Below are positions 23,301-64,000 of a DNA stretch of 64,000 nucleotides, in pieces. The DNA comes from Lepus europaeus (Eukaryota; Chordata; Mammalia; Lagomorpha; Leporidae). The notes under the pieces were generated by a model. It was not told the origin of the DNA. It made no database searches and worked only from the letters and a program-made list of their open reading frames with translations. Numbering within the stretch: the first letter of the stretch is position 1; the number at the start of each line of letters is the position of its first letter. A program made the translations under genes and the position numbers. The stretch covers positions 10,636,540-10,700,539 of the forward strand of contig NC_084831.1 of NCBI RefSeq assembly GCF_033115175.1, given 5' to 3'.

Positions 23301-25030
23301 TTCTGCTAGGAAAAAACCCTTCGCCGTGGCTCCCGGGGCGCAATCGGCCAGCGCGCGGTCCTTGTAAGAAAACGAGTCCTTATTTGTTTAAGCCACTGGC
23401 AGGCTTCCTGCCCCTCGTAGCTGCTGGGACCCCTCTCCCCCCACCCTGGGGGCGCTCAGCTGCCGATTCTCTTTCCAGCCGCAAACCTCAGCTCCTCCGG
23501 GGCCGGGACGGCCGAGCCTCTGCGGCCTCCCTCCTGCTCCGGGCGTCCCGGCCCGGACAAGGGGAAGTGGGAGCGGATCCGGAGATGCCGACCTCGCCCA
23601 GGTGTCCTTACGCATCCCCGCACCCCCACCCACTGGTCTCCGTCCGGCCCGCAGGTGGCAAGGGTTTCCAGGCTTTGCCCGACAAAGGCGCTGCACCATT
23701 GCAGGGGCTCCAGGCAGAGCCGCAAGGAGGGGGAATGGCGCCTCGCAGGAAGCGAGCTCGTCTCTCGGAGATGCGCCTTGAGAAATACGTTTGCATCTGC
23801 GGAGGCATGGCTCCCGCACTGGCCCGATCACTCGCATCTCTATGCGTTTTCGCACCGGCGCCGCCTAGCACACGCCTGTCGGATGCGCAAACCAGAGGGT
23901 GGAGCCCTCCACCGTCCACAGCGCCCGCGCCGCCCTCGCCCGCCCCGCCCGGCGCCCGGCGCCCGGCGCCCGGCTGCCCGCCCACGCCCCTGCCCGCTCC
24001 GCGCGCTCCGCCCCTCCCCCGGCTGCCCGCCGCCGCGTCCCGGCCCCGCCCCGCCCCGCGTCGCGACGGCAGAGCCAGCGAGGCGGGCTTTACGGCAGCC
24101 GCGTTGCGGCGGGGCGGGGCTCCGGGCGGCCGGCGCGCTTGGCGGCAGCGGTGGGAGGCAGGCCGGCAGGCAGACGGACTCGCAGGCGGGTGGTGGCGGC
24201 CGTGCTCGCTGGTGAGGGCGGGAGGGAGTGAGTCACTGAGCGTGTGTGAGGGAGGGAAGGAGCGAGCGAGCGAGCGAGCAGCCCGCGCCGCCCTCCCGCC
24301 AGCGCCAGCCAGGCCCCGCCGCACCGCCTGCCCTCCGTCCCGCGCCCAGGCCGGGCCGAGCCGAGCCGGGTCGGGCCCGGGCCATGCTGCTCACCGTGTA
24401 CTGTGTGCGGAGGGACCTCTCCGAGGTGACCTTTTCCCTCCAGGTCGACGCCGACTTCGAGCTGCACAACTTCCGCGCGCTGTGCGAGCTCGAGTCCGGC
24501 ATCCCCGCAGCCGAGAGCCAGGTACGCCGTGCGGGAGCGGGGCCCCCGGAGGCTGGTCCCGCCTGCCCCGGGGCCTCACGCGCTCCGTCTGCTACTGGTG
24601 GCGAGTCGGGGGGCTGGGGAGGGGGCGAGGGGCGCAGGGCTGGCCGAGCCCGTCGCGCCCCCGCGTCCGGGAGGGAGCTGGGGCCGCCGCTGCCCCCGCA
24701 GCAGCCCGGAGAGCGAGCGGGGACCCGAGCGCAGACGCGCCCGCCGCAGCGAGAGGGGCGCAGCCCTCCCCGCCTGGGTCCTTTCTCCCTTGCCGACCCC
24801 GAGTTCGGGGTGTCGTGGACCTGAGCAGCAGCGCCGTGGGTCGCTTCCCCCCCAGCCAGGAATTCCAGTTGCGATCCCTGCGGTGGATGGACGCCCGGGG
24901 CTCCTGCGCGAACGCGCGCGGTTTGCCTTGGCGTGGACAGGTTGGCCTCTCACGGGAAGGGAAAAGTTCGCCTCGTCTCGAGGGCTTTGGAAATGCCCTC
25001 TTGTCCCTACACACGCGTTTCTGGGGAAAC
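23300..25030 (+). promoter_or_regulatory. DDI2: DDI2 CpG-island promoter
   Basis: About 1.7 kb of CpG-dense sequence, most extreme at 23,900-24,400 with many GGGCGG/CCGCCC-type Sp1 sites and no TATA box, surrounding DDI2 exon 1. This is the usual architecture of a broadly expressed gene. The transcription start is not fixed by sequence alone. No SINE lies between 22,985 and 26,944. Confidence 0.85.
24384..24521 (+). CDS. DDI2: DDI2 exon 1, start of ubiquitin-like domain
   Basis: Codons 1-46, [12 protein letters not shown]... to AAESQ, the first two strands and helix of the ubiquitin-like domain. The ATG (24384) has G at -3. An in-frame TGA at 24237-24239 with no ATG in between supports this start. 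Donor CAG-gtacgc, phase 0. Confidence 0.97.
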
Positions 25031-36575: not shown

Positions 36576-36705
36576 ATCGTCTATGCTGAAAGACCACTCA
36601 CAGACAACCACAGATCCCTGGCTTCTTACGGCTTGAAAGATGGGGACGTTGTGATTTTACGGCAGAAGGAGAATGCAGACCCTCGACCTCCGGTGCAGTT
36701 CCCAA
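36576..36705 (+). CDS. DDI2: DDI2 exon 2, rest of ubiquitin-like domain
   Basis: Codons 47-90 (split), IVYAERPLTDNHRSLAS... to PPVQFP. It completes the UBL fold (KDGDVVILRQKE strand). Acceptor cgttgtag, donor CCAA-gtaagc, phase 1. It follows a 12-kb first intron. Confidence 0.97.
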
Positions 36706-41484: not shown

Positions 41485-41718
41485 GCTTACCCCGGATAGA
41501 CTTCAGCAGCATCGCTGTGCCTGGCACATCCAGTCCCCGGCAGCGTCAGCCAGCCGCAGTGAAGCCGTCCCACTCCTCTGGAGAAATGGCTGCATCTCCT
41601 CAGGGCTTGGACAATCCAGCCTTGCTCCGAGACATGTTGCTGGCCAACCCACACGAGCTGTCCCTGCTGAAGGAGCGCAACCCACCCCTGGCCGAAGCTC
41701 TGCTCAGTGGAGATCTTG
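41485..41718 (+). CDS. DDI2: DDI2 exon 3, linker and start of helical domain
   Basis: Codons 90-168: [14 protein letters not shown]..., a Ser/Pro/Gln linker ([19 protein letters not shown]), then [20 protein letters not shown]-, the first helices of the Ddi helical domain. Compared with remembered human sequence the linker is one residue shorter (SHSSGE against SHSSPGE). Acceptor ttcccaacag, donor CTTG-gtaagc, phase 1. Confidence 0.96.
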
Positions 41719-44223: not shown

Positions 44224-44350
44224 AGAGATTTTCCAGGGTCCTGGTAGAGCAGCAGCAGGACCGGGCCCGGAGGGAGCAAGAGAGGATCCGTCTCTTTTCT
44301 GCTGACCCCTTTGATCTTGAAGCTCAGGCAAAGATAGAAGAAGACATAAG
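44224..44350 (+). CDS. DDI2: DDI2 exon 4, helical domain
   Basis: Codons 168-210: [20 protein letters not shown]... to AKIEEDIR, the charged helices of the helical domain ([14 protein letters not shown] is highly typical of Ddi proteins). Acceptor attgtcgtag, donor ATAAG-gtaacc, phase 2. Confidence 0.97.
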
Positions 44351-46871: not shown

Positions 46872-46999
46872 GCAACAGAACATTGAGGAAAACATGACGA
46901 TAGCTATGGAAGAGGCCCCGGAAAGTTTTGGCCAAGTAGTGATGCTTTATATTAACTGCAAAGTGAACGGACATCCTGTTAAAGCCTTTGTTGACTCAG
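46872..46999 (+). CDS. DDI2: DDI2 exon 5, protease domain with catalytic Asp
   Basis: Codons 210-253: [20 protein letters not shown]-, then [22 protein letters not shown]. Asp251 of the DSG(A) triad is the retropepsin catalytic aspartate. The A of DSGA is supplied by exon 6. Acceptor tttgttacag, donor CTCAG-gtgacc, phase 1. Confidence 0.97.
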
Positions 47000-49990: not shown

Positions 49991-50998
49991 AGTGACCAAA
50001 ATATAGATAATGTAAAAAAGAAACAGTGAAAGCCATTACGATCTTTTGAACACATCAAGTAAGTGATTTGAAGAAGCTGATATTTTAGGAAAACAGCAGG
50101 GCAGATCAGGACAATTCTGTATACTGAAGAGTTAAAACTGTTCTTGCTTTAAGTGAAGTGGTTTGAAAGCCAGAGAAGTTGTCCACTTGAGTGAGCTAGG
50201 CTGATATCAAAGGTCAGAGGAGAAAGGTCAGAGGTAGCCGAATTACGTAAACCTTATTTACAGATTTGGGACAGAGTTAGCAGACAGAGGCTAGGAGTAA
50301 AGGAGTTAAAAGTGAACCGTGCCTCAGTTTTATAAAGACTAGTAGAAAATATTGGCAACGCTACAAAAATCCAAAGTGAGAGCTATTTGGGGGAGAGTCT
50401 TGTACCTGTTGGCTTTGAGATACACAGCGCAGCACACAGGAATGTAGAAGGCGAGTTAGGACTGCAGATGAAGACTAGAGACTGGCCTGCCTCCTGCACC
50501 AGCCGACTTCAGCTGAGTTCATGTGACAGGGAGAGAAAATACTTTAAAAGAGGGTCTAACTGGGGAGGAGTATGGGGAGTTCACTTCTAATTTTTTGGGT
50601 GACTACAGGATATATTTTTAACTGCTAAGCTGTAATGTCCCAAAGTTTGAAATAAAAATCACTTGGTAAAGTGCTTAGATCAGTGAAAGCTGCATAGAGT
50701 GTTAAGTTTTGTCTAACTTTATGTTGCCGTGTGCAGACACAGTGGTCATCATTTGAACTTTTAGGAGGTCCTTGTCCAGTTTTCTTTCTCTTGATAGTTT
50801 TAAAATATTCTTTAATTATTACATTGCAAAGTAATATTCTTTTCCTCATTAAGTTTCCATACTGTGTTTCAGATGCTAATGTGTGAAAGTGAAAGTTCAA
50901 ATAAGGTGGGCAGGACATCTATTAGATAGGAACAATGTCACAGAGAAAAACCTTAAGGTGTGCTTGCTTTCTGCCTTGTTCTTTATGTTGTATTTCTT
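49991..50998. other. Intron 5, SINE-free stretch
   Basis: About 1 kb of AT-rich sequence with no recognised gene or repeat. Confidence 0.5.
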
Positions 50999-51235
50999 AA
51001 AAATTATTTTTTGTTTATTTGGAAAGCAGAGAGATCTTCCATCCACTAGTTCACTCCCCAAATGCCTACAACTCCTGGGGCTGGGTCAGGCCAAAGCCAG
51101 GGGTCTGGAACTCCATGCAGGTCTTGCATGTGGTTGTGGCAGGGACCCAAGTACCAGCACCATCATCTGCTGCCTCCCAGGGTCCGTGTTAGCAGGGAGC
51201 TGGATCAGCAATGCAGTGCCAGATGCCCCCTTAGT
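50999..51235 (-). mobile_element. CSINE close to exon 6
   Basis: 'tttgtttatttggaaagcag' to 'cagcaatgcagtgccagatg'. 5' end truncated, 71 bp before the exon 6 acceptor. Confidence 0.8.
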
Positions 51236-51306
51236 TTATGCTGTGCTTTGAATCTTGCCACAAATGTGGATTGTTTACATTATCTGATGTTTCTGTCCCT
51301 CTCCAG

Positions 51307-51435
51307 GTGCCCAGATGACTATTATGAGCCAAGCTTGTGCAGAAAGGTGTAATATAATGAGATTGGTGGACCGTCGGTGGGCTGGAATTGCCAAAGGAGT
51401 GGGCACCCAGAAGATTATTGGAAGGGTACATCTAG
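51307..51435 (+). CDS. DDI2: DDI2 exon 6, protease domain
   Basis: Codons 253-296: [20 protein letters not shown]... to KIIGRVHL, following the catalytic DSG in the retropepsin fold. Acceptor cctctccag, donor CTAG-gtgagt, phase 1. Confidence 0.97.
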
Positions 51436-51977
51436 GTGAGTAGGGTAGTGGATTTTTAAATGGTTTTTTTTTTTTTTTCTCTATATGGATTCATCTAATC
51501 CCAATAAACCTAACTCCTAGAAACTTTAAATCCCACATTCTGTCAACATAGGATTTACATGTTTCTGCTGGTTGCAAAGTAACTAGACTTCCCAGTTCCA
51601 GCTCCTCAGACATAATCCCTTGCAGTTATTTTAGCTGATGTATTTTGGTACTTACCTCCACTCGAAATGGAAAGATTGTACAGCTGTTTACTGGTGGAGC
51701 TGTGTGAATACCTTTGAGTGCTGAGTCATCTACTTGAACACAATTGCTTTTCTGTCTAGTATTTTTTTGTTAGAATTAATAACTATCTTCCTTTTTGCAA
51801 TATCACTTGGTTTGTTATGTGCTAGTCAGACACTTCCTTCTTGCTACATAAATTTCCTTTAAGTAGATTCAAATACAGTGGGTATCATATACATATCATG
51901 CTGTCAAAGACACATCTTCCAAGCCTGGACTAGTGCTAGTTCCAAACCTGCTACTTAGTTGCTGTTTTGGAGTCTCC
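51436..51977. other. Intron 6 spacer
   Basis: About 540 bp with no recognised feature. Confidence 0.45.
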
Positions 51978-52294
51978 TTTTTTTTAAAGATTTATTTATT
52001 TATTTGAAAGAGTTACAGAGAGAGAGAGAGAGAGATCTTTCATCTGCTGGTTCACTCCCCAATTAGCTGCAACAGCCAGAGTTGCACCGATCGGAAGCCA
52101 GGAGCCAGGAGCTTCTTCCCGGTCTCTCATGTGGGCGCAGGGGCCCAGGCACTTGGGCCATCTTCTGCTGCTTTCCCAGGCCATAGCAGAGAGCTGGATC
52201 AGAAGAGGAGCAGCCAGGACTAGAACTGGCGCCCACATGGGATGCCAGCGCTGCAGGCAGAGGCTTCAATCACTCCGCCACAGCGCCGGCTCCT
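51978..52294 (-). mobile_element. CSINE
   Basis: 'tttttaaagatttatttatt' to 'ccgccacagcgccggctcc'. Confidence 0.92.
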
Positions 52295-52395
52295 CAAGGG
52301 CTGAGTAAGGATTACAATCACGTGCACCATAGTGATATAGCTAACGTTTTTAGAGTAAAAGAGGCAAATCATAGCTCAAAAATATAAAACAATAA

Positions 52396-52725
52396 GGCCG
52401 GCGCCGCGGCTCACTAGGCTAATCCTCCGCCTTGCAGCGCCGGCACACCGGGTTCTAGTCCCGGTCAGGGCACCAATCCTGTCCCAGTTGCCCCTCTTCC
52501 AGGCCAGCTCTCTGCTATGGCCCGGGAGTGCAGTGGAGGATGACCCAAGTCCTTGGGCCCTACACCCCATGGGAGACCAGGAGAAGCACCTGGCTCCTGC
52601 CATCGGAACAGCGCGGTGCACCGGCCGCAGCGCGCTACCACGGCGGCCATTGGAGGGTGAACCAACAGCAAAAAGGAAGACCTTTCTCTCTGTCTCTCTC
52701 TCTCTCACTGTCCACTCTGCCTGTC

Positions 52726-52748
<23 letters not shown>
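52396..52748 (+). mobile_element. CSINE, young
   Basis: 14-bp TSD atataaaacaataa (52382-52395 and 52749-52762). A (TA)n run lies at the end of the A tail. Confidence 0.97.
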
Positions 52749-52756
<8 letters not shown>

Positions 52757-52762
52757 CAATAA

Positions 52763-53101
52763 GAAATAAGTACAAAGGTGATAAAAACTAAGAAAACCTA
52801 CAAACAACACAGAAACCAGGAGGGTTGATGAAGGAGCAGAGTGTACAGGAGGCTAGCTACTAAGTCTGAGAAATGACTAGGCTGTGTACTGGGCATGCAT
52901 TTCCTGCACTTCAGCTTGTAAGATCTGTTTATAACGGTTTAAATATATATGAATATACATATATATTTTTGTTTTCCATCAGAGGAGTGTTTGACAAAAG
53001 GGACAGGCGAACCCAGGCCTTGATGTTGTCTCTTGTTCAGCAAGCAGAAACTTGATTATAACAGGCAATGATGAGCTGTTTCTTTTTAGAGGTTAATTTA
53101 A
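52763..53101. other. Intron 6 spacer
   Basis: About 340 bp with no recognised feature. Confidence 0.45.
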
Positions 53102-53445
53102 TATTTTTTTATAAATCTTTTAAAAAAAGATTTATTTATTTTTCTTGAAAGTCAGAGTTACACAGAGAGAGGAGAGGAAAGGCAGAGAGAGAGGTCTTCC
53201 ATCACTGGTTCACTCCCCAATTGGCCGCAATGGCCGTAGCTGCACTGATCCGGAGCCAGGAGCTTCTTCTGGGTCTCCCACGTGGGTGTAAGGGCCCAAG
53301 GACTTGAGCCATCTTCCACTGCTTTCCCAGGCCATCAGCAGGGAGCTGGATCAGAAATGGAGCAACTGGGCCTCAAACTGGCGCCCATATGGGATGCCGG
53401 TGCTTCAGGCCAGGGCGTTAACCCTCTGCGCCACAGTGCCAGCCC
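53102..53445 (-). mobile_element. CSINE
   Basis: TSD gttaatttaa on both sides (about 53091 and 53450). Confidence 0.93.
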
Positions 53446-53507
53446 CTGGAAGTTAATTTAAAAGATTCAAAGTGTGCAGATTTTAGTTCCCTTTTAGAAA
53501 ACCTTAG

Positions 53508-53856
53508 GCCGGCGCCGTGGCTTAACAGGCTAATCCTTCGCCTTGCGGCGCCGGCACACCTGGTTCTAGTCCCGGTCGGGGCACCGGATTCTGTCCCGGT
53601 TGCCCCTCTTCCAGGCCAGCTCTCTGCTGTGGCCAGGGAGTGCAGTGGAGGATGGCCCAAGTGCTTGGGCCCTGCACCCCATGGGAGACCAGGATAAGCA
53701 CTTGGCTCCTGCCTTCGGATCAGTGCGGTGCACCGGCCGCAGTGTGCCGGCTATGGCGGCCATTGGAGGGTGAACCAACGGCAAAGGAAGACCTTTCTCT
53801 CTGTCTCTCTCTCACTGTCCACTCTGCCTTTAAAAAAAAAAAAAAAGAAAGAAAGA
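53508..53856 (+). mobile_element. CSINE, young
   Basis: TSD gaaaacctt (53497 region and about 53857). (GAAA)n at the end of the tail. Confidence 0.95.
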
Positions 53857-53913
53857 AAACCTTTAGACGTGTATAGGAAGGAGATGTTAATATTGAACGA
53901 ATTGATCTCTTTA

Positions 53914-54210
53914 AAGATATAGTTATTTATTTTATTTGAAAAATAGAAAGATAGAGATCCCATCTGCTGGCTCATTCCCCAGATGCCCACAGTACTTGGC
54001 CTGGGCCAAGCTGAAGGCATTCGCCAAGGATTCCATCTGGGTCTCCCACATAGGTAGCAGAGGACCCAACCTCTTGAGCTGTCCCCTGTTGCCCACCAGG
54101 GTGTACATTAGCAAGTAGCAGGAATTGGGAGAAGAGCTGGGCTAGTACCCAGGCAGTCCAGTACAGGAGGTGTTCCAGGAAGCCTCTTAATCACCACATC
54201 AGGCATCTGC
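53914..54210 (-). mobile_element. CSINE, old
   Basis: 'tttattttatttgaaaaata', 'cccatctgctggctcattcc', 'tgggtctcccacataggtag'. Confidence 0.78.
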
Positions 54211-54220
54211 TCCTCGTCTT

Positions 54221-54415
54221 TGTAAAAATTGGAGAGAGAGGTACCATTCACTGGTTCATTGTCTGTATGTCCCCAACATTCCCGATCTGGGGGCTGAGCC
54301 AGGAGTCAGGAACTCAACCCAGGTCTCCCATGTGGGGCAGGGACCCCACCACTTGCGCTATGACCACTGCCTACCAGAATATGAATCAGTAAGAAGCTAG
54401 CGTCACGAGCTGGAT
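54221..54415 (-). mobile_element. CSINE fragment, old
   Basis: 'attcactggttcattgtctg', 'aactcaacccaggtctccca', 'aagaagctagcgtcacgagc'. Confidence 0.65.
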
Positions 54416-54419
54416 ACAG

Positions 54420-54748
54420 GCGCTGGTGTTGTATAAGGGTAAAGCCGCTGCCTATGATACCAGTATCCCATATGGGTGCCAATTCTAGTCCTGGCTGTTC
54501 CACTTCTGATCCAGCTCCATGCTAATGTGTCTGGGAAAGCAGTGGAAGATGGCCCAAGTACTTAGGCCCCTGTACCCACATGGGAGACTCAGAAGAAGCT
54601 CCTGACTCTTGGCTTCAGTCTGGTCCAACTCTGGCCATTGTGGCCATTTGGGAAGTGATCCAGCAGGTGGAAGATCTCTCTCCCTCTCTCTAACTCTGCC
54701 TTTCAAATAAGTAAAATAAATCTTAAACAAACAAACAAGAAACAGGAA
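54420..54748 (+). mobile_element. CSINE
   Basis: Perfect 13-bp TSD agctggatacagg (about 54409 and 54750). Confidence 0.95.
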
Positions 54749-54761
54749 AAAGCTGGATACA

Positions 54762-55050
54762 GGGGCAGGCATTGTGGTACAGGGGGATAGACTGCTTCCC
54801 ATCCAGCTCCCTACTAATGTGCTTAGGAAGGCAGCAGAAGATGGCTGAAGTACTTGGGCCCTGCCACCCAGGGGGGAGACCTGGATGGAGTTCCAGGCTC
54901 CAGGCTTCAGCCTGGACCAGCCCTGGACACTTGGGGCCTTTTGGGGTGTGACCAGAAGATAGAAGATCTCTGTCTCACTCTCTCTGTCTCTGTGCCTTAC
55001 AAATAAGTAGATCTTTAAAAAACAAACAAACAAACAAAAAAAAAAAAAAC
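54762..55050 (+). mobile_element. CSINE with internal deletion
   Basis: 'ggggcaggcattgtggtaca' jumps to 'cccatccagctccctactaa'. Ends in (CAAA)n and poly(A). Confidence 0.85.
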
Positions 55051-55066
55051 AGGATACATCGAACTG

Positions 55067-55348
55067 AGGCATTTATTTTATTTCTTTGAAAGGCAGAGTT
55101 ACAGAGAGAAAGAGAAGGAGAGACAGAGAGAAACAAATCTGAAGCTGGTTCAGGCCACAGCCAGGAGCTTCTTCCTGGTCTCCCAAGTGGGTGCAGGGAC
55201 CCAAGCACTTGAGCAGTTCTCTGCTGCTTTCCCACGCCGTAGCAGAGAGCTGGGTCAGAAGTGGAGATGCTGGGACTTGAACCAGGGTCCGTATGGATGC
55301 TGGCGCTGCGGGTAGGGGCTTCACCTGCTACACCGTAGCACCCGCCCC
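55067..55348 (-). mobile_element. CSINE
   Basis: 'ttatttctttgaaaggcaga' to 'acaccgtagcacccgcccc'. Internal deletion in the 'ccactggttcactccccaaa' part. Confidence 0.88.
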
Positions 55349-55638
55349 ATTATTTTTTAATCTTCAATGCTTGTCTTCCTCTCCACCTGAGCTTGAGTCC
55401 TAATGGCATCACCTGTCAAACCCGTGGTTCTACTGGATACCCTTTGTGAGTCAGCACCTTCACTGGTTCTTAAACTGATCGTTGGTTTTACCAGATTTTC
55501 GTGCTTGTCTTACCTGTTTGCCTTATTTGTCTTGGCTTCGACTGGAGGAAGCCGCGGCCGGAGTGACAGGTTCATTTCCAGAGCATGCCTGAGGCTGTGA
55601 AGCAAGGGTGAATAACCTCTTCCCTGTCTGTGCTTCAG
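55349..55638. other. Intron 6 3' end
   Basis: Single-copy-looking sequence. This starts a 5.5-kb zone without CSINEs that spans exons 7-9. Confidence 0.5.
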
Positions 55639-55742
55639 CTCAGGTTCAGATTGAAGGAGATTTCCTGGCGTGTTCCTTCTCGATCCTTGAGGAGCAGCCC
55701 ATGGACATGCTTCTGGGACTGGACATGCTTAAGCGGCACCAG
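55639..55742 (+). CDS. DDI2: DDI2 exon 7, protease domain
   Basis: Codons 296-330: [24 protein letters not shown]-, then [11 protein letters not shown], the second conserved hydrophobic-Gly element near the C end of the retropepsin fold. Acceptor tgtgcttcag, donor CACCAG-gtagcc, phase 0. Confidence 0.97.
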
Positions 55743-57160
55743 GTAGCCAGCAGCCTCACGCTAGTTCTGCATCGGCTTTTTGTATGTGGTGTGGCGATTA
55801 TCCGGTACCTGTTGGTCCAAGTACAGGAAAACCAAGGGGCACGAGTTTTCAAAATTGGAAGTCGTACAAAGGTTGACATGACATAGCCAAAAAAAATAGA
55901 ATCTGTCTTTGTCAAATCTCTCTGTGAATCTTAAAATTCTACTGTTTTAAGATTGCAGTGGACAGTTTGACCCCTTGTGTAAATTTTAAGATTCTAGTGT
56001 CTTGATGTTTTGATGTTTTACTGCAAGTGCAAGTTTTGTAAATCTTCACTAATTTTGGATGCTAATCAGATAGTACTTGGGAAGGACCCCAAAGTTAAGG
56101 CAGGTGTGGTAATATTTATAAAACTACTCTGAATCCTAATAATTTAAGGTATAGTGTTCTCTGGGTACTAAAGATTTCTCACAGCAGGGTTTTATATCCA
56201 GTTAATATTTTTTTCAGTATTATAAAGCTCTTAAAATAATGAAATTCTATAAAATAATTACATTGTTTTGATAAGATACTGCATTCTAAATAGAGGGGAT
56301 GAGTAGATGCATCTGTAAGTAGAAGCTATTTTCTTATATTTAATCATTGTATAGACAGAGGGGGGAATGTCTGGCCTGCAGGCCATATAAGGCCCACAGA
56401 ATCATTTGATCTGCTCCTGCCACGGCAGCTGCAGGCTGGCCTCCAAATTCAGTTAATCTGTAGCAGACCAGTTTTATGTTGATAATTTTTATGGCCTGCA
56501 AATGTTACAAAAATCCAAGCAGCAGAAAGTTTCCCCACCCCAGTATAGACCTGTAGTCTCCAACCTTATAGACATAAATCATATATGCCTATAACTGTCA
56601 TGTATTAAGTAGTTTAACACATACCAAAAAAAACATAGAATTGAAAGATACCAAGAGCATGACATAAAGAATACTTTTGTAGAGATTTCATTGCACATCT
56701 ACCACTTTGGAGACCATTAGCATAGTTTAAATGTATCTGTACTTTATATAATAAGTAAATGCAGCAAGAAAATAGGACTGTGTGACTGGTGTGGTCGAGC
56801 GCAGAAGGAAAGTGATTTGCATGTTCCTGAAAGTTGGGGCTGCTAGTTATGCCTAGCACCTTTCCAGATTTTGTACAATGAACATGTATTCATTTATCAG
56901 AAATGAACAGATGTCGTTTTAAATTAAAATAAATGCAAATTATATCCTATAAAATTATTCTGCTGTAAATGTCAAACATTTAAAAAAGCTGTCTAAATTA
57001 ACACAATATCACACGAGTTAACGTTTAAATACTCTATAAAGTCATTTTCTTGAAAATGTCCCTGTCCGTGGTGTTGTCCGAATGGAGTCTCAGCTGAGAG
57101 CGTAGATTTTCTGCTCTGTGTTTTAGCCGCTGTTGTCATGTTCGGTTTCTTCCCTCTCAG
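55743..57160. other. Intron 7
   Basis: About 1.4 kb, AT-rich, without CSINEs. A weak ancient DNA-transposon-like block lies at about 56,350-56,540 ('tggcctgcaggccatataag'). Nothing else recognised. Confidence 0.45.
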
Positions 57161-57338
57161 TGCTCCATCGACCTCAAGAAGAACGTGCTCGTGATTGGCA
57201 CCACAGGCTCACAAACCAGCTTCCTGCCGGAGGGGGAGCTGCCGGAGTGCGCGCGGCTGGCATACGGGGCTGTGCGGCCGGAGGAGATCGCAGACCAAGA
57301 GTTAGCAGAAGCCATTCAGAAATCAGCAGAGGATGCAG
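57161..57338 (+). CDS. DDI2: DDI2 exon 8, end of protease domain and C-terminal tail
   Basis: Codons 331-390: [20 protein letters not shown]..., then the acidic tail [19 protein letters not shown]. Between AYGA and VRPEE four residues remembered from human (GRED) are absent, a 12-bp in-frame difference. Acceptor tccctctcag, donor TGCAG-gtatct, phase 1, so either exon 9 or the acceptor at 62396 can follow in frame. Confidence 0.96.
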
Positions 57339-57685
57339 GTATCTGGGTCGACTGGAGCCCGTGAATGGATCTGGTTTTGCTGGGGAGCCGGGGAGGTGCT
57401 CCAGAGGTGGGGAGCGGTGCGGCCTGTGGCCCGTCTCACCAGCCAGCGGTAGACTGTGTGTCTGCTTGCTGCCTCCGCCCGTCTCTTACTGCAGCAGAGA
57501 AGATGCGGCGTTTCAGCAGATCCAGACACGTCTTGCTGTGTGCAGGATGCACTGGGAGTTACCTCGCTTAGACACATTTCGGTGGGCTTCCTGAAGGGAA
57601 TTGTAGCAGCAGGCACACACCTTTGTGTTCAGAATTATTTTCCTAAAAGTCTTTCCTCCTTCTAGGCCCATTTATTTTGAGGGAC

Positions 57686-57712
57686 AGCACTGTCACTGTC
57701 ACTGTCACTGTC
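57686..57712. repeat. (CACTGT)n short tandem repeat
   Basis: About four copies of the hexamer CACTGT in intron 8. Confidence 0.85.
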
Positions 57713-57930
57713 AGCAGCTCTCACTTTATAGATATGTGGTGGAAGTGCTGCCACTCAAAGCCATGAGAACAACGGCAGGAAGCACACGTGAATGTTAACC
57801 GGAGGGCACTGTCCATGCTGTCATTGAGAGTGCTGAAACAACATGTTAACTACTGAGGTGAAGCCACCTAATACTTTTTCCCAATGTCGATGGTTTTGGC
57901 TGGCCTGTTTAAGTCCAAGATGGAGCCGAG

Positions 57931-58084
57931 TGTTCTGGATAAAGTGGGGCAACAACGCAGTTTTACTGAATTCTCCATCTGGTAAAGAACAGTGAATCTG
58001 GGGTGTGTTCTGGATAACGTGGGGCGACAACGCAGTTTTACGGAATTCTCCATCTGGTAAAGAACAGTGAATCTGGGGTGTGTT
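57931..58084. repeat. 75-bp tandem duplication
   Basis: Two units, 57931-58005 and 58006-58080, start TGTTCTGGATAA and differ at only about 3 positions, with the first 4 bases of a third unit. It lies in intron 8 and has no similarity to the SINEs. Confidence 0.93.
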
Positions 58085-59517
58085 GACTTTCAAGTTTGGG
58101 TTATTTAAAGTCTTGAGCTGGAATCACTCACCAGTGTGACAGATGCCACATACTGCTTCTCTCGTACAGTGACATGTATCAGAGTTAACAGTCGAGGGAG
58201 TAACTTTCTCCTAAAGACAAGAGGGTAAGAACTTTAGAAACGAGCAGCCAGGGTCTGCCACACTTCCTGGAAAGCATTCGGACGTCCAGCCCTGTGCTCG
58301 TCAGGACGGGTGTGTGGAGCAGATGGAGGTTTGCAGGCTGGCCTTGTTCGGGATCTGTGCCCGTCAGCTTTTGGCTCAGTGTTACATAGAAGGCACAGCG
58401 TCGGTTGTGACCAGTGTTTTGTGGGAAGGGAAAGATTCTGAGCAACCAGACAGGAAGAAACTAACTTAATCGTTTTAATCTCTGCAGCAAGTTAGCTTGA
58501 GTGAGGTAGGCCTGCATACTCATCCTGTGTGGCTTTTGGAAGTAACTGGTCTTCTTGTGTGCTGTGTATTACTGTGAGGACACGTCGCCATTTTGTGGAA
58601 TTTCTCCCCTTCTATTTAAATTTAACTTCCACAGTCTTGGCATTGTTACTTGGGAATAACAATGCCGCCAGCAATGGTTTCTAGTACCAGTAACCGTTAC
58701 CCTCTTTGGGCGACTACCGTATTCTAATCAAAAGCACAAGAAGTTGAAACAGATACCACAGGTGCTTCCAGGCTCAGCGACGAGGGTGTTCCAGTGTCCG
58801 CGGATTAAAAGGGGTGGCTTCCCCAGAGCACTCACTGCCGACAGGGACGGCGTGCCGAGTCCCGTAAAGAGCTGTGGATCACATCCTGTGTCTTTGAAAT
58901 GCTGCTTCCCAGCATCGTTAACAGTCAAACTCTGGACACAGTGGGTGAAAGTGTTGTTAAAAATCATTTCTTTGGCAGATATTTTACATCAAAATATCTT
59001 CATCTTTTCTCTCAGTTGAGAAATTAGGTGCTACATCTGACAGACTTTTTGAAAATTGATTAGAAGGCAAAGAAGATAAGCCAGGATAGAACTGAAGGAG
59101 ATTCGGTTTGTTTGATTCTAAAAATGAATCTCAACTGAGAAAGAAAGTTGGAAAGTGACCATTCCATGTGTTCACTCACTTTTACTCCCTAACAGGGTTT
59201 CATAGTTAATTCCATTTGATGGGTCTACTTTTTTCACCTGCTGCGCGTGTTTGCCCTTGAATTCTCTGAGTAAATGGGTAAAATTAATTTCTTTCCAAGT
59301 TCTGTTAAAAATGTGTTGAAGTTGACATAGCCTATGTATTGTGGGAGAGCTGAAGCAACCAGCAGCTCCTCAGATGTCCAAACCGGAGGAACATTCCCCC
59401 CACTGACTCCACGAGTTCCTGATTTTAAAATGGCAAAGGAGTGGAAACTGTAACCCTGCACGCTGTGTGGTTTGCATCGTTAACCCAAGTTTGCTGTCTG
59501 TTTCCTAATTCAAACAG
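58085..59517. other. Intron 8, remainder
   Basis: About 1.4 kb without SINEs. No gene or named repeat recognised. Confidence 0.5.
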
Positions 59518-59534
59518 AGCGTCAGAAGCCATGA
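59518..59534 (+). CDS. DDI2: DDI2 exon 9, last five codons and stop
   Basis: With the split codon from exon 8 it reads E-R-Q-K-P-TGA, the known DDI2 C terminus. The acceptor is ttcaaacag. The rest of the exon is 3' UTR. Confidence 0.93.
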
Positions 59535-60819
59535 TGCATGTAGTGTGTGTGTGCTGCAGCTGGAGTGGGCCCCAGACCAGGTATTTATAGACGCCACGCT
59601 CCGCCTCCGTGCAGTGTCATCCAGTCTGAACTTGTCTGTGCTGCCGCAGTCTGGAAGTCGGCTTCTGCCATGCATTCCACCTGTGTGATCTGGTTACAAC
59701 CAGCCTGTACGTGCACTTGTATGTTGGCGCACATGCGTGCGTAAGAGTAGATTCCCGTTTAAAATTGTGTGAGTTACAAGAACGGGGCAGGGAATTTCAG
59801 CAAAGACAGCGTCTGCTAGCTCTGCCACATCTGTTTGGAGTACCAAGTGGAGAACACTGACATCACAGCCCTGTGTTGTTGGGAGTGACTTTTCTTTGTA
59901 ATGCATTTTAGGAACTCCTTTCCTCTGAAAAACTAAGAGCTCTTTTTTTCACATTGTTGTGTATGACCACCTGGAGTTTTGAGGGGTAGGGGGAAGAAGA
60001 GATTTTCATTGCGTTGAGAAAGAAATGGAAACTTCAACTTGACCAGGATCACAGAGCCTGTAACATAGGCAAGACTTGCATTTTATTCTTGCAACAGCAG
60101 CTGAGTCTTTGCTTTTTCCCTGTGTCCCTGGCCTGACATTCTCCATGGGAGGCACTTGAGTTCCATTGCCCTGTGGTGTAAATGTGATACATGGCCACCT
60201 GAGGCTGTCAGCTGACAGAGCAGGAGGAAAAGTTGCTGCTAAGTGGGCAGCCCTAGCTCTCACAGGGGTTTGCAGGCTGGTTGTAATCAGACACATCGCA
60301 TTTAACTTCTTCTCTCTCCCCTGGGAAGGGTGGGTAAAACAGGCCGAGTCTGATTGTTCTGGATGCCCATTCTCATCTTCTGTTGCCATGTAGTACTGAC
60401 CCCGTCCTCCCTCCACGTAGCACTTAGGCCAGTGAATCTGACCGTGTCCACTGCCGGAGGCCTGTGCTGCTTTTCTCATGAGTACAAAATCCATTGAGCC
60501 CATGTTCACCTTGACCTCCCCTGGTTGTTTATCAGTGCATAGCAGTGCCAGAGGCCTTCTCATCCTCCTCTGTGTCACCAGCACAGGTATTTCACTACAG
60601 TGCAGTTTTTTCTGTTCGCATCAGTTCGAAATCGAACCTCTTCCAGAGTCAGCCTTAGAGATTGATAATAACTGTGTTTCTGGATTCTAGTGGATGTAGT
60701 TTAAACTGAGACAAAGGTTGTTTCTCTGCTTATTGCTAATGTTCATTCCAAAGCTTGTGTTGCACCTGCCCAAAAAGATTGTCCTGTGAAGTCATCTTTG
60801 TTACCAGCCTTTGGACTTT

Positions 60820-61131
60820 TAAAAATTTTTTATTTATTTTCATTTTATTTGAAAGGCAGAGAGACAGATAGATCTTCCTTCTGCTGGTTTACTCCCAAGA
60901 TCCCTGCAACCTCCAGGCTTGTACTAGGCCCTAGCAAGGAGTCCAAAACTCAATCTGGCTCTCCCACATGGATGGCAGGGACCCAAGTACCTCAGCCATC
61001 ATCTGCTGCTGCCCAGGGAGCACATTAACACAGCTGGATTGTAAGCAGAGTAACTGGGACTCAAACCAGGCACTCCCATATGGGATATGGGCATCCCAAG
61101 CAGCAACTTACTGTGTCAAAACTCCCACCCC
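60820..61131 (-). mobile_element. CSINE
   Basis: 'cattttatttgaaaggcaga' to 'actgtgtcaaaactcccacc'. Confidence 0.83.
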
Positions 61132-61249
61132 TGGCTTTGAATTCAGTCTTACAATAAGTGCATAGAAGCTTATTTTAACTGGATGAATGGGAAAAAGAAA
61201 ATTGAAACTCATGTTTAAAGATACTGTTAGCTGTTCACACTGAGCTGAT

Positions 61250-61555
61250 TTTTTTTTTTTTTTTTTTTTGGTTAAGATTTGTTTATATATAAGAATTAGA
61301 GAGATATCTTCCATCCACAGGTTCATTCCCCAAATGGCCATAATGGCTGAGGTTGGGCCAGGCCGAAGCCAGGAGCTTCTGAGGGGTCTCCCACATGGGT
61401 GCACGGACCCAAGCACTTGGGCCATCCTCCCTGTTTTCCTAGGCCCATGAGCAGGGAGGTCGATCAAAAGTGGAGCACCAGGACTTGAACTGGCGCCCAT
61501 ATGGAATGCCTGTGCTGCGGGTGGTGGCTTACCCCACTGCGCCACAATGCCGGCC
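61250..61555 (-). mobile_element. CSINE
   Basis: TSD cacactgagctgat/cacactgagccgat (about 61236 and 61556). Confidence 0.94.
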
Positions 61556-61739
61556 CCACACTGAGCCGATGGCTAGGTCTGCCACCTTATTTGAGTGTTC
61601 ATTAAGTTGCAGTTAACCTAGATAGTCACTGCCTATTGAACAACTATTATGAACTGTCTCTTCGCTACTCCACCAGGTTCCTTTAAAGAACATAACTGTT
61701 CTTAGCACAGTTGTACTCTATTAATGTGGTAACTGTAGT

Positions 61740-61818
61740 CCTTTATTTATATTGTTTATTGGAGGCAGAGGCACAGACAGAGACATCACATTCACTGGTT
61801 TACTCTCTAATCAGAGGT
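61740..61818 (-). mobile_element. CSINE fragment
   Basis: Only 'ttattggaggcagaggcaca' and 'ttcactggtttactctctaa' remain. Confidence 0.6.
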
Positions 61819-61954
61819 AGAATCGTGTTTGCTTCTTTGTCTTCTGGAAGTCCCTGAGCATCATGTAAATTCTCAAATTCCAAATTTCAGACATCTCATC
61901 ATTTGAGTGTGCACATTTGAAACATGAAAAGTGCATTGATATGAGAAGCATCCT

Positions 61955-62065
61955 ACTGCAAAGATTCTCGAGCCTTGTAACATGCTTAGGAATCACACAG
62001 GAGCTTATTGAAAATGAAAACGCCTAGATTTATCCCCCAGGATGCATACTTAACAAACATCCCAC
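61955..62065. mobile_element. MER5A-type relic
   Basis: 'tcgagccttgtaacatgctt', 'gaatcacacaggagcttatt' and 'cgcctagatttatcccccag' follow the MER5A order. Confidence 0.55.
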
Positions 62066-62360
62066 ATTATTTTAGGGCAAGTGGTGGACAAAGCACTCTT
62101 GGAGAAACTATCGAGGAGTTCAGAGTAAAGATCCGTGCGTGTTCTGCAGTCCCGAGCACTAACAGCCATGTGCGTGTTGTACCGAGAACATGCCTACCTC
62201 TTACTCTGGTTGCATGTTAAAACATCTGCCACCGTGAGAAAGAATTCTTCCACATTTTTAATTATCTCTGTGGGAGGACCCTGAGATGAAGGGCCTGATT
62301 TTATTTATTCTGTCCTGTTTAGACTTGTACCCCTGGTAATGCAGTGGCCCTTGTTAAGTG

Positions 62361-62395
62361 CTGATTAATCTTCCTTTCCCTTTTGTTCTGTATAG
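62361..62395 (+). promoter_or_regulatory. Strong splice acceptor in front of RSC1A1
   Basis: Branch-like CTGAT (62361-62365), pyrimidine tract from 62370 and TATAG ending at 62395. From 62396 the frame reads AG-CAA-AGT-GGT..., which completes codon 390 of DDI2 exon 8 (G|AG, Glu) and continues without a stop into the RSC1A1 ATG as codon 401. Confidence 0.75.
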
Positions 62396-64000
62396 AGCAA
62401 AGTGGTAAAGAATCTACCTCACTGGGAATGTCGTCCTCACCAACCTTAGATGGATCTGACCATCCAGCCCATTCTTCAGGACAGAGTCCTGAGGCCGGGA
62501 ACCCCGCGAGTCTTGCTCGCTCTGTACCTGCTTCAGTCTGCCCTGTCAAGCCCGATAACCCAGAGAGCACTGAACCTGAAGCTGCGACGGCCTGGAAGGC
62601 TTCAGATGGATTCCAGATAAACTCTGAAAAGAAAGACCACCTTTCTCTCCAGGGCCATTCTCCTTGTGCTTCTGCAGCAGCCCAGAGCCCAGCCATGCCT
62701 TTACAGCGTTCATCTGAAGAAGCAGGTGTTGCCGACAGCCTGGAGGTAGCTGCTGAAAGAAGCACCCAGGGCCTCCGATTTCATCTCCACACGAGACAGG
62801 AAGTGAATTTATCCATCACGACTACCAGGATGCATGAACCACAAATGTTTGTAGGTGAAGAAGGTTGGCATCCAGAAAATCAGAACCCGAGTCAAGTGAA
62901 CGACCTCCAGCAGCACCAAGAACCAGAGAACGAGCAGCACGAGGCGGTCCCACGGGACGCTCCGTGTGACACAGGGGACCTTGAACTTCCTGGAGAAAGG
63001 CAGCAGAAACAGGAAGTTGCTGACTGGGAAGCCACGATGAGAGGCGGTCATCTGCAGCAGAATGCGGGTCTTCCAGATCCAGGGGAGGGCGCCCTCCCTT
63101 CCGGACGCTGTGGCTGCTCGAACTCAGAAACACTTATGGAAGTGGGTGCAGCCGAACAGTCCCTGGTTGCTGCGCTGAGTTCCGCAGGCAGGCAGAATGC
63201 CAGTGTCGGGAATGGCAGTGCGTCTGATCTCACTTTGGGGAATCCCTCCATGGAAGTAGAGCTATCACCATGCAGCCCTTCGTCTGAGATCTTGAATGGT
63301 TCCATCCCCATTCAGGACCTGCAGCCCCCAGAAGGTAGTGTGGAGATGCCTGGGACAGACAGCGAATACGGCGGCCGTGCCTCCTCCTCCAGTGTCTGTG
63401 GCGGTAGTCAGCCCCCTGCAGAGTCCGCAGAAGAATCTTGTTCATCTATAACGACAGCCTTGAAAGAACTTCATGAACTTTTGGTCATTAGTAGTAAACC
63501 AGCGGCAGAAGCTGCATGTGAAGAGGTCATGTGTCAATCAGAAGGGACAGCTGAGGGGCAGCCGTGTAACAACCTTTCTGCAAGATGGACCGAAAATGAG
63601 CGTCGGACCCAGGATGAGGCGCGGCCACAGGTGTCGCGTGAGGCCATACCTGTGTCTGTGAAGACAGAAAAATTAACAGACACTTCACCTGACACCGGAA
63701 TAGAAGATGGAGAAAATACTACCTTCCAAGGTCCAGGTGGTGGCCTGTCAACTCATAACGGTGCCCCCAGGTCTGGGGGCTCAGTGCACGAGAGCCGTTC
63801 TGTCACTGTAACCGCAGCTGAAACATCTAGTCAATCACACTGCACCTTAGGTGTGGAAATTTCACCCGGACTTCTAACAGGTGAGGGGGATGCACTCAGT
63901 CAGACTTCCGAGCAGACTAAGTCTTTGCTGGTTAAAGACTTGGGTCAGGGCACACAGAACCCAGCACCAGACAGGCCTGAGACCAGAGAAGACGTCTGTC
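62396..64000 (+). CDS. DDI2: Alternative DDI2 terminal exon (predicted DDI2-RSC1A1 fusion)
   Basis: Inferred coding exon when exon 8 is spliced to 62396. It adds EQSGKESTSLG, then the whole RSC1A1 frame, in place of the ERQKP terminus. The predicted product keeps the DDI2 UBL, helical and protease domains and gains the long disordered RS1 region. The UBA domain known at the end of RS1 would lie beyond the window. The acceptor quality, the matching phase and the absence of stops are seen; actual use of the junction is inferred. Confidence 0.6.
62428..64000 (+). CDS. RSC1A1: RSC1A1, regulatory solute carrier protein RS1, 3' end cut by the window
   Basis: Intronless frame of 524 complete codons, open at the window edge. 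The human protein is about 617 residues, so about 75 residues including the UBA domain are missing. RS1 lowers surface levels of transporters such as SGLT1 (SLC5A1) by acting on vesicle release at the trans-Golgi network, and also affects their transcription. It has no signal peptide or membrane segment and is Ser/Glu/Gln/Pro-rich and probably disordered. Recognised landmarks: start MSSSPTLDGSDHPAHSSGQSP, QGLRFHLHTRQE- (about residues 115-126), MHEPQMF, ELHELLV with an LxxLL-type LHELL at 348-352 in the nuclear-shuttling region, and LGVEISPGLL near 480. The regulatory tripeptide QSP is at 19-21 and 86-88. The human QCP site is ARP here (398-400). The ATG has G at -3. Confidence 0.93.
   Translation, partial: MSSSPTLDGSDHPAHSSGQSPEAGNPASLARSVPASVCPVKPDNPESTEPEAATAWKASDGFQINSEKKDHLSLQGHSPCASAAAQSPAMPLQRSSEEAGVADSLEVAAERSTQGLRFHLHTRQEVNLSITTTRMHEPQMFVGEEGWHPENQNPSQVNDLQQHQEPENEQHEAVPRDAPCDTGDLELPGERQQKQEVADWEATMRGGHLQQNAGLPDPGEGALPSGRCGCSNSETLMEVGAAEQSLVAALSSAGRQNASVGNGSASDLTLGNPSMEVELSPCSPSSEILNGSIPIQDLQPPEGSVEMPGTDSEYGGRASSSSVCGGSQPPAESAEESCSSITTALKELHELLVISSKPAAEAACEEVMCQSEGTAEGQPCNNLSARWTENERRTQDEARPQVSREAIPVSVKTEKLTDTSPDTGIEDGENTTFQGPGGGLSTHNGAPRSGGSVHESRSVTVTAAETSSQSHCTLGVEISPGLLTGEGDALSQTSEQTKSLLVKDLGQGTQNPAPDRPETREDVC

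Follow-up and report, generated by a model that had tools for sequence, protein, structure and literature searches.

The window analysed here is a stretch of 64,000 nucleotides from Lepus europaeus (NCBI RefSeq assembly GCF_033115175.1, contig NC_084831.1; C6:10636540-10700539) that carries, on its plus strand, DDI2 and, 3' of its exons, RSC1A1, the gene for RS1. The DDI2 protease activates NRF1/NFE2L1 and thereby serves proteasome recovery. For the placement of its exons, a human DDI2 sequence was used as tblastn query, and their borders were set by GT-AG dinucleotides and reading frame (Table 1). Spliced together, the first eight exons form one open frame, and with exon 9 (from 59518) they encode a DDI2 of 394 amino acids that ends in AEDAERQKP. 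This protein has an N-terminal UBL domain (PF00240, E 2.9e-06, 27.4 bits against a cut-off of 25.4), the helical domain preceding the protease (PF24669 Ddi2_HDD, E 2.9e-29) and the retroviral-type aspartic protease domain (PF09668, E 4.1e-52), with FVDSGA present in the translation. RS1 comprises 598 amino acids from the ATG at 62428. Its UBA-like end, with the C-terminus ILPPLGFPAADVDRILRAGFTLQEALGALHRVGGNADLALLVLLAKNIVVPT, lies beyond the window, and the bases required for it were taken from the same genome with the numbering continued beyond 64000. In this genome, the splice architecture that would permit a fusion of DDI2 with RS1 is real.

An earlier note on this DNA, made from the letters alone, had proposed a splice from exon 8, ending in phase 1 at 57338, to a consensus acceptor just ahead of RS1, and the sequence features it named are all present. 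GT-AG borders and frame confirm the exon 8 end, and the acceptor ending at 62395 is preceded by a pyrimidine tract and by CTGAT, whose branch-like A stands 31 bases ahead of the last base of the acceptor AG. On an approximate position matrix, from which all acceptor scores given here derive, this acceptor is surpassed among the nine of the gene only by that of exon 6 (12.9), and the acceptor of exon 9, which leads to the ERQKP-stop end, ranks at the bottom (5.59). Joined to exons 1-8, the exon from 62396 gives a frame that, as had been claimed, has 0 stops up to the window edge; it comprises 924 amino acids there and 998 once the 224 bases past the window are added. The likewise noted 11 open codons before the RS1 ATG consist of one split codon and ten complete ones. 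An in-frame stop at 62362-62364 shuts the RS1 frame immediately upstream of the acceptor, so that reading RS1 from farther 5' requires a splice or RS1's own start. The neighbouring AG at 62396-62397, if used as acceptor, would lead to a stop after three codons. The ERQKP exon and the RS1 exon both start with AG, and both complete the same glutamate codon. The weak UIM, on which the earlier note is silent, is encoded in exon 8 and would be retained by both isoforms, the one ending in ERQKP-stop and the one with the RS1 tail.

Table 1. Features of the DDI2-RSC1A1 locus, in window coordinates.
Feature	Position	Strand	Basis or remark
DDI2 exon 1 (coding part, UBL)	24384..24521	+	tblastn placement, GT border
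DDI2 exon 2	36576..36705	+	tblastn placement, GT-AG borders
DDI2 exon 3	41485..41718	+	tblastn placement, GT-AG borders
DDI2 exon 4	44224..44350	+	tblastn placement, GT-AG borders
DDI2 exon 5; 3' border splits G codon of catalytic DSG	46872..46999	+	tblastn, GT-AG
DDI2 exon 6	51307..51435	+	tblastn placement, GT-AG borders
DDI2 exon 7	55639..55742	+	tblastn placement, GT-AG borders
DDI2 exon 8, donor CAG/gtatct, phase 1 at end	57161..57338	+	GT-AG and frame
UIM core LAEAIQKS	57302..57325	+	compared with human LAEALQKS in PMC4962041
DDI2 exon 9 start: E completed, then RQKP and stop (short DDI2 C-terminus)	59518..59534	+	
CTGAT, branch-point-like, A at 62364	62361..62365	+	sequence
Pyrimidine tract and acceptor AG, ...ttttgttctgtatag	62366..62395	+	score 10.94, second of nine gene acceptors
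Eleven open codons EQSGKESTSLG (first split), acceptor to RS1 ATG	62396..62427	+	joined translation
RSC1A1 (RS1) open reading frame, reaching window edge	62428..64000	+	stop codon up to 64224, numbering continued past the window edge

Between 57359 and 62440, 5 of 365 AGs score at least as high as the acceptor at 62395, that acceptor included; the other four lie at 57666, 59016, 61277 and 61443. On the plus strand of the window there are 40 sites of this strength, about 0.6 per kb. Of the ATGs treated as mock starts, 18 of 867 (plus strand) and 18 of 939 (minus strand) have an in-phase, open and equally strong acceptor; among the former are the RS1 ATG itself and perhaps further in-frame ATGs downstream in its reading frame. 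The chance of such an in-phase acceptor is about 2%, which suggests a real site without deciding the question; at this rate, the support from one genome is modest. Two stretches between the ERQKP exon and RS1 (60828-61140 and 61240-61560) resemble short interspersed elements (SINEs), presumably lagomorph copies, and the acceptor-like site at 61277, with its poly-T, belongs to the second. A 75-base tandem duplication (57930-58079, copies 96% identical) lies in the intron that follows exon 8, and exon 8 itself reads AYGAVRPEE at 57269-57274, where human DDI2 is four residues longer (AYGAGREDVRPEE), a 12-base in-frame difference.

From the ERQKP stop to 64511, beyond the RS1 stop, neither AATAAA nor ATTAAA occurs, these being the two signals scanned for. 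Because no canonical poly(A) signal precedes the end of RS1, a single transcription unit could end in either exon, and the ERQKP mRNA probably extends through RS1, which would thus sit in the DDI2 3' untranslated region. Array entries that name DDI2 and RSC1A1 jointly, namely one human transcript cluster (PMC7013750) and one entry of a mouse array (PMC5499001), are in line with such an mRNA. Translation of RS1 by scanning along this long mRNA was considered and rejected as unlikely, since 46 ATGs within 59518-62427 precede RS1, which therefore has to rely on its own promoter or on a splice. No CpG-island-like block lies ahead of RS1 (CpG ratio at most 0.55 in those of the thirteen 500-base blocks from 57339 that are 5' of RS1), an absence that proves little. 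An Rfam scan of 50000-64000 gave 0 matches.

According to Sivá et al. (2016; PMC4962041), vertebrate Ddi1-like proteins lost their UBA domain, which is now part of RSC1A1, a vertebrate-specific gene apparently inserted into the ancestral DDI2 locus, and DDI2 carries a weak C-terminal UIM. The core of what the earlier note had inferred was therefore already known. The human and vertebrate pair described there corresponds to that in our window, with neighbouring genes and a DDI2 without UBA but with a UIM; the C-terminal UBA of RS1, in our window a UBA-like end, is derived by those authors from ancestral DDI2. However, those authors proposed an insertion, the words "exon" and "splice" are absent from their main text, and a joint product goes unmentioned in the passages on these genes. 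We found no report of an in-frame DDI2-RSC1A1 junction in the literature searched, outside of which lie most subscription journals and the annotation databases; apart from PMC4962041, the articles examined that name both genes do so in tables of expression data, in a gene list or among their abbreviations. An apparent tie of DDI2 to splicing or readthrough in four papers was rejected, as the word was confined to their reference lists, in three of them within a digital object identifier.

We are somewhat inclined to regard RS1 as an overgrown ancestral Ddi1 last exon whose in-phase acceptor has survived, so that DDI2 and RSC1A1 would form one gene with two alternative endings. The last exon of the Ddi1-type ancestral gene would have encoded a linker and the UBA domain. 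In vertebrates, enlargement of this exon would have produced the long coding exon of RS1, and a small upstream exon with the ERQKP-stop end would have taken over as the main end of DDI2. RS1, within the DDI2 3' untranslated region, would be translated mainly from its own start as a separate protein. At 62395, the phase-1 site would then be the intact acceptor of the ancestral last intron, and skipping of the ERQKP exon would yield a UBL-HDD-protease-UIM-RS1-UBA protein of 998 amino acids. Both exon growth rather than insertion and the ancestral status of the acceptor are what we infer here. The hypothetical product would share its domain order with yeast Ddi1 (Vsm1) and invertebrate Ddi1 (UBL-HDD-RVP-linker-UBA), but about 550 RS1 residues would precede its UBA, whereas the named linker piece of the yeast protein has about 50.

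Several findings weigh against this reading. The comparison covers one genome, and RS1 may have its own start; PMC7462918 treats it as a separate protein. Moreover, the splicing history preserved in DDI1 favours the short end. A query of the same genome with the joined exon 8-RS1 sequence gave at least three matches, of which two are the home exons and one is DDI1 (C9:92608664). A DDI2 protein query, with 27 candidates scored, gave at least nine matches; eight of those reported are the home exons, and the ninth is again DDI1. The latter is an uninterrupted DDI2 copy within C9:92607641-92608849, with an open 419-codon frame, no internal stop and 77% identity to DDI2 across residues 1-393. Its tail, DSGRKKH-stop, corresponds to the ERQKP exon and not to RS1: past the junction, 11 of 17 bases match exon 9 and 5 of 17 match RS1, and 11 matches to this tail are attained by only 2 of the 525 AG-preceded 17-mers from 57340-64200, exon 9 being among the 525. 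DDI1 most likely stems from an mRNA with the ERQKP end, and the match to exon 8-exon 9 shows that the short isoform existed in the ancient germ line. This tail speaks against routine use of the RS1 junction; a minor long isoform stays compatible with it. Past the tail, the 3' flank of DDI1 has no clear likeness to either the exon 9 or the RS1 side, with unconvincing scores of 26 against a shuffled maximum of 30 and of 29 against 28, respectively (20 shuffles each). No fossil copy of the exon 8-RS1 junction was among the genome matches listed for the joined query, and the only DDI2 retrocopy found was DDI1. Judged from the sequence, the junction 57338^62396 may be in regular present-day use as a minor or tissue-limited isoform, a proposal towards which we are slightly more sceptical than inclined.

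The evidence from the C-terminal domain of RS1 points both ways. Scanned at full length, RS1 matches no Pfam family up to E 10; the UBA is seen solely with the C-terminal piece: the last 58 residues have UBA (PF00627) as their sole Pfam match, with E 0.052 and 13.9 bits, under the Pfam cut-off of 22.4. Human RS1 behaves comparably, with no Pfam match up to E 1 at full length and 13.6 bits for its end. Against the PDB, the last 47 residues matched NUB1 (E 0.018), FANCG (E 0.021), which we judge to be a chance helical resemblance, and the yeast Ddi1 UBA (E 0.82), with nothing more up to E 10. In a panel of ten UBA pieces, into which NUB1 was put because the RS1 end had already matched it, yeast Ddi1 (z 10.1) and NUB1 UBA2 (z 10.0) came out ahead of the next piece (5.9). 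NUB1 leads in raw score, with 60 versus 53 for yeast Ddi1, and with a shorter human RS1 piece it leads in z as well (9.0 versus 8.1). Mud1, the S. pombe ortholog of Ddi1, is middling (z 4.4 with this RS1, 5.3 with the human piece). The yeast Ddi1 match reaches into FP ahead of the first helix, in an extension that was chosen after the PDB result. In the comparison of UBA domains that the earlier note had suggested, yeast Ddi1 thus shares the best z, with NUB1 level and higher in raw score; these comparisons are consistent with a Ddi1 origin, and proof is beyond their reach. The wider proposal of that note, an expanded ancestral last exon, agrees with the published UBA transfer and with the phase-1 acceptor and is thus partly supported, short of proof; at the UBA, the match is sub-cut-off and NUB1 does at least as well. 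Scans of the RS1 exon against viral and bacterial/archaeal sequence collections yielded no confirmed relative, a result that, given the nature of these collections, has no bearing on the conservation of RS1.

Alternatively, RSC1A1 might have an origin apart from DDI2, as a gene that either entered the DDI2 3' region by insertion or came into being there, and that captured the UBA. In that case, the site at 62395 would be an unused relict or a product of chance, and the two proteins would always be separate. We consider this possible, if rather doubtful. Such an origin agrees with the novel inserted gene described in PMC4962041 and with a DDI1 retrocopy that records solely the ERQKP end, and sites of equal strength occur at about 0.6 per kb on the plus strand, with 36 of 1806 mock starts passing the in-phase test. 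Against it, a strong in-phase acceptor lies precisely where the ancestral exon would begin, and the 46 ATGs between exon 9 and RS1 would oblige the inserted gene to have a separate promoter or a splice, with no CpG-island-like block ahead of it, little as that absence proves. An expanded ancestral last exon accounts better than an insertion for the phase-1 acceptor with which RS1 begins at its 5' side. That the RS1 end is not derived from Ddi1, being either UBA-like of other (NUB1-like) origin or a convergent three-helix bundle, is quite improbable: the lead of NUB1 in raw score and E-value and the sub-cut-off Pfam match are in its favour, but the domain lies directly 3' of a gene whose invertebrate relatives reportedly end in a UBA (PMC4962041), the splice phase is compatible, and the Ddi1 match, extended as described above, covers FP before the first helix.

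If RS1 is an overgrown last exon, its long N-terminal part may have a counterpart in yeast. Residues 344-395 of yeast Ddi1, between protease and UBA, have a role in binding of the t-SNARE Sso1, in which phosphorylation is involved (PMC11012796), and through Sso1 binding Ddi1 inhibits exocytosis (PMC11012796, PMC5028754). RS1 slows the exit of SGLT1 vesicles from the Golgi, an effect that kinases and a QSP motif modulate (PMC7462918). In the fused protein RS1 would take the place of the yeast linker, and QSP occurs at residues 30 and 97 of the RS1 exon, the first thus lying 30 residues into it. By analogy of position and effect, RS1 may have taken over from the Ddi1 linker a role in restraining exocytosis. 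This connection appears to be new: among the papers listed for it, only PMC4962041 names RSC1A1 together with yeast Ddi1 terms and, in the passages concerned, does not draw the link. In its widest form, the proposal would be that vertebrates kept the Ddi1 UBA as an option, with a DDI2 splice switch between the short protease and a UBL-protease-RS1-UBA protein, and that RS1 is the overgrown Ddi1/Vsm1 linker, so that the NRF1-cleaving protease and sugar-transporter traffic would belong to one gene of one ancestry. We regard this as unlikely and rate it lower because human or leishmanial Ddi1 is reported to rescue a yeast ddi1 knockout (White and coworkers, cited in PMC4962041); as human Ddi1 does so without an RS1 part, the linker is dispensable for some of that effect. 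For secretion to be repressed, both the UBL and the catalytic Asp220 were reportedly required (White and coworkers, in PMC4962041).

Overall, the splice architecture is real, its evolution is mostly published, and the fusion isoform is a candidate on sequence grounds. The question, that of one junction, matters for a well-studied protease. If true, a UBA-bearing DDI2 isoform would bear on how DDI2 without a UBA selects ubiquitin-marked substrates, knockouts of DDI2 or RSC1A1 could strike a shared product, and RS1, at full length a protein without a Pfam family, would gain an origin and a likely ancestral function.

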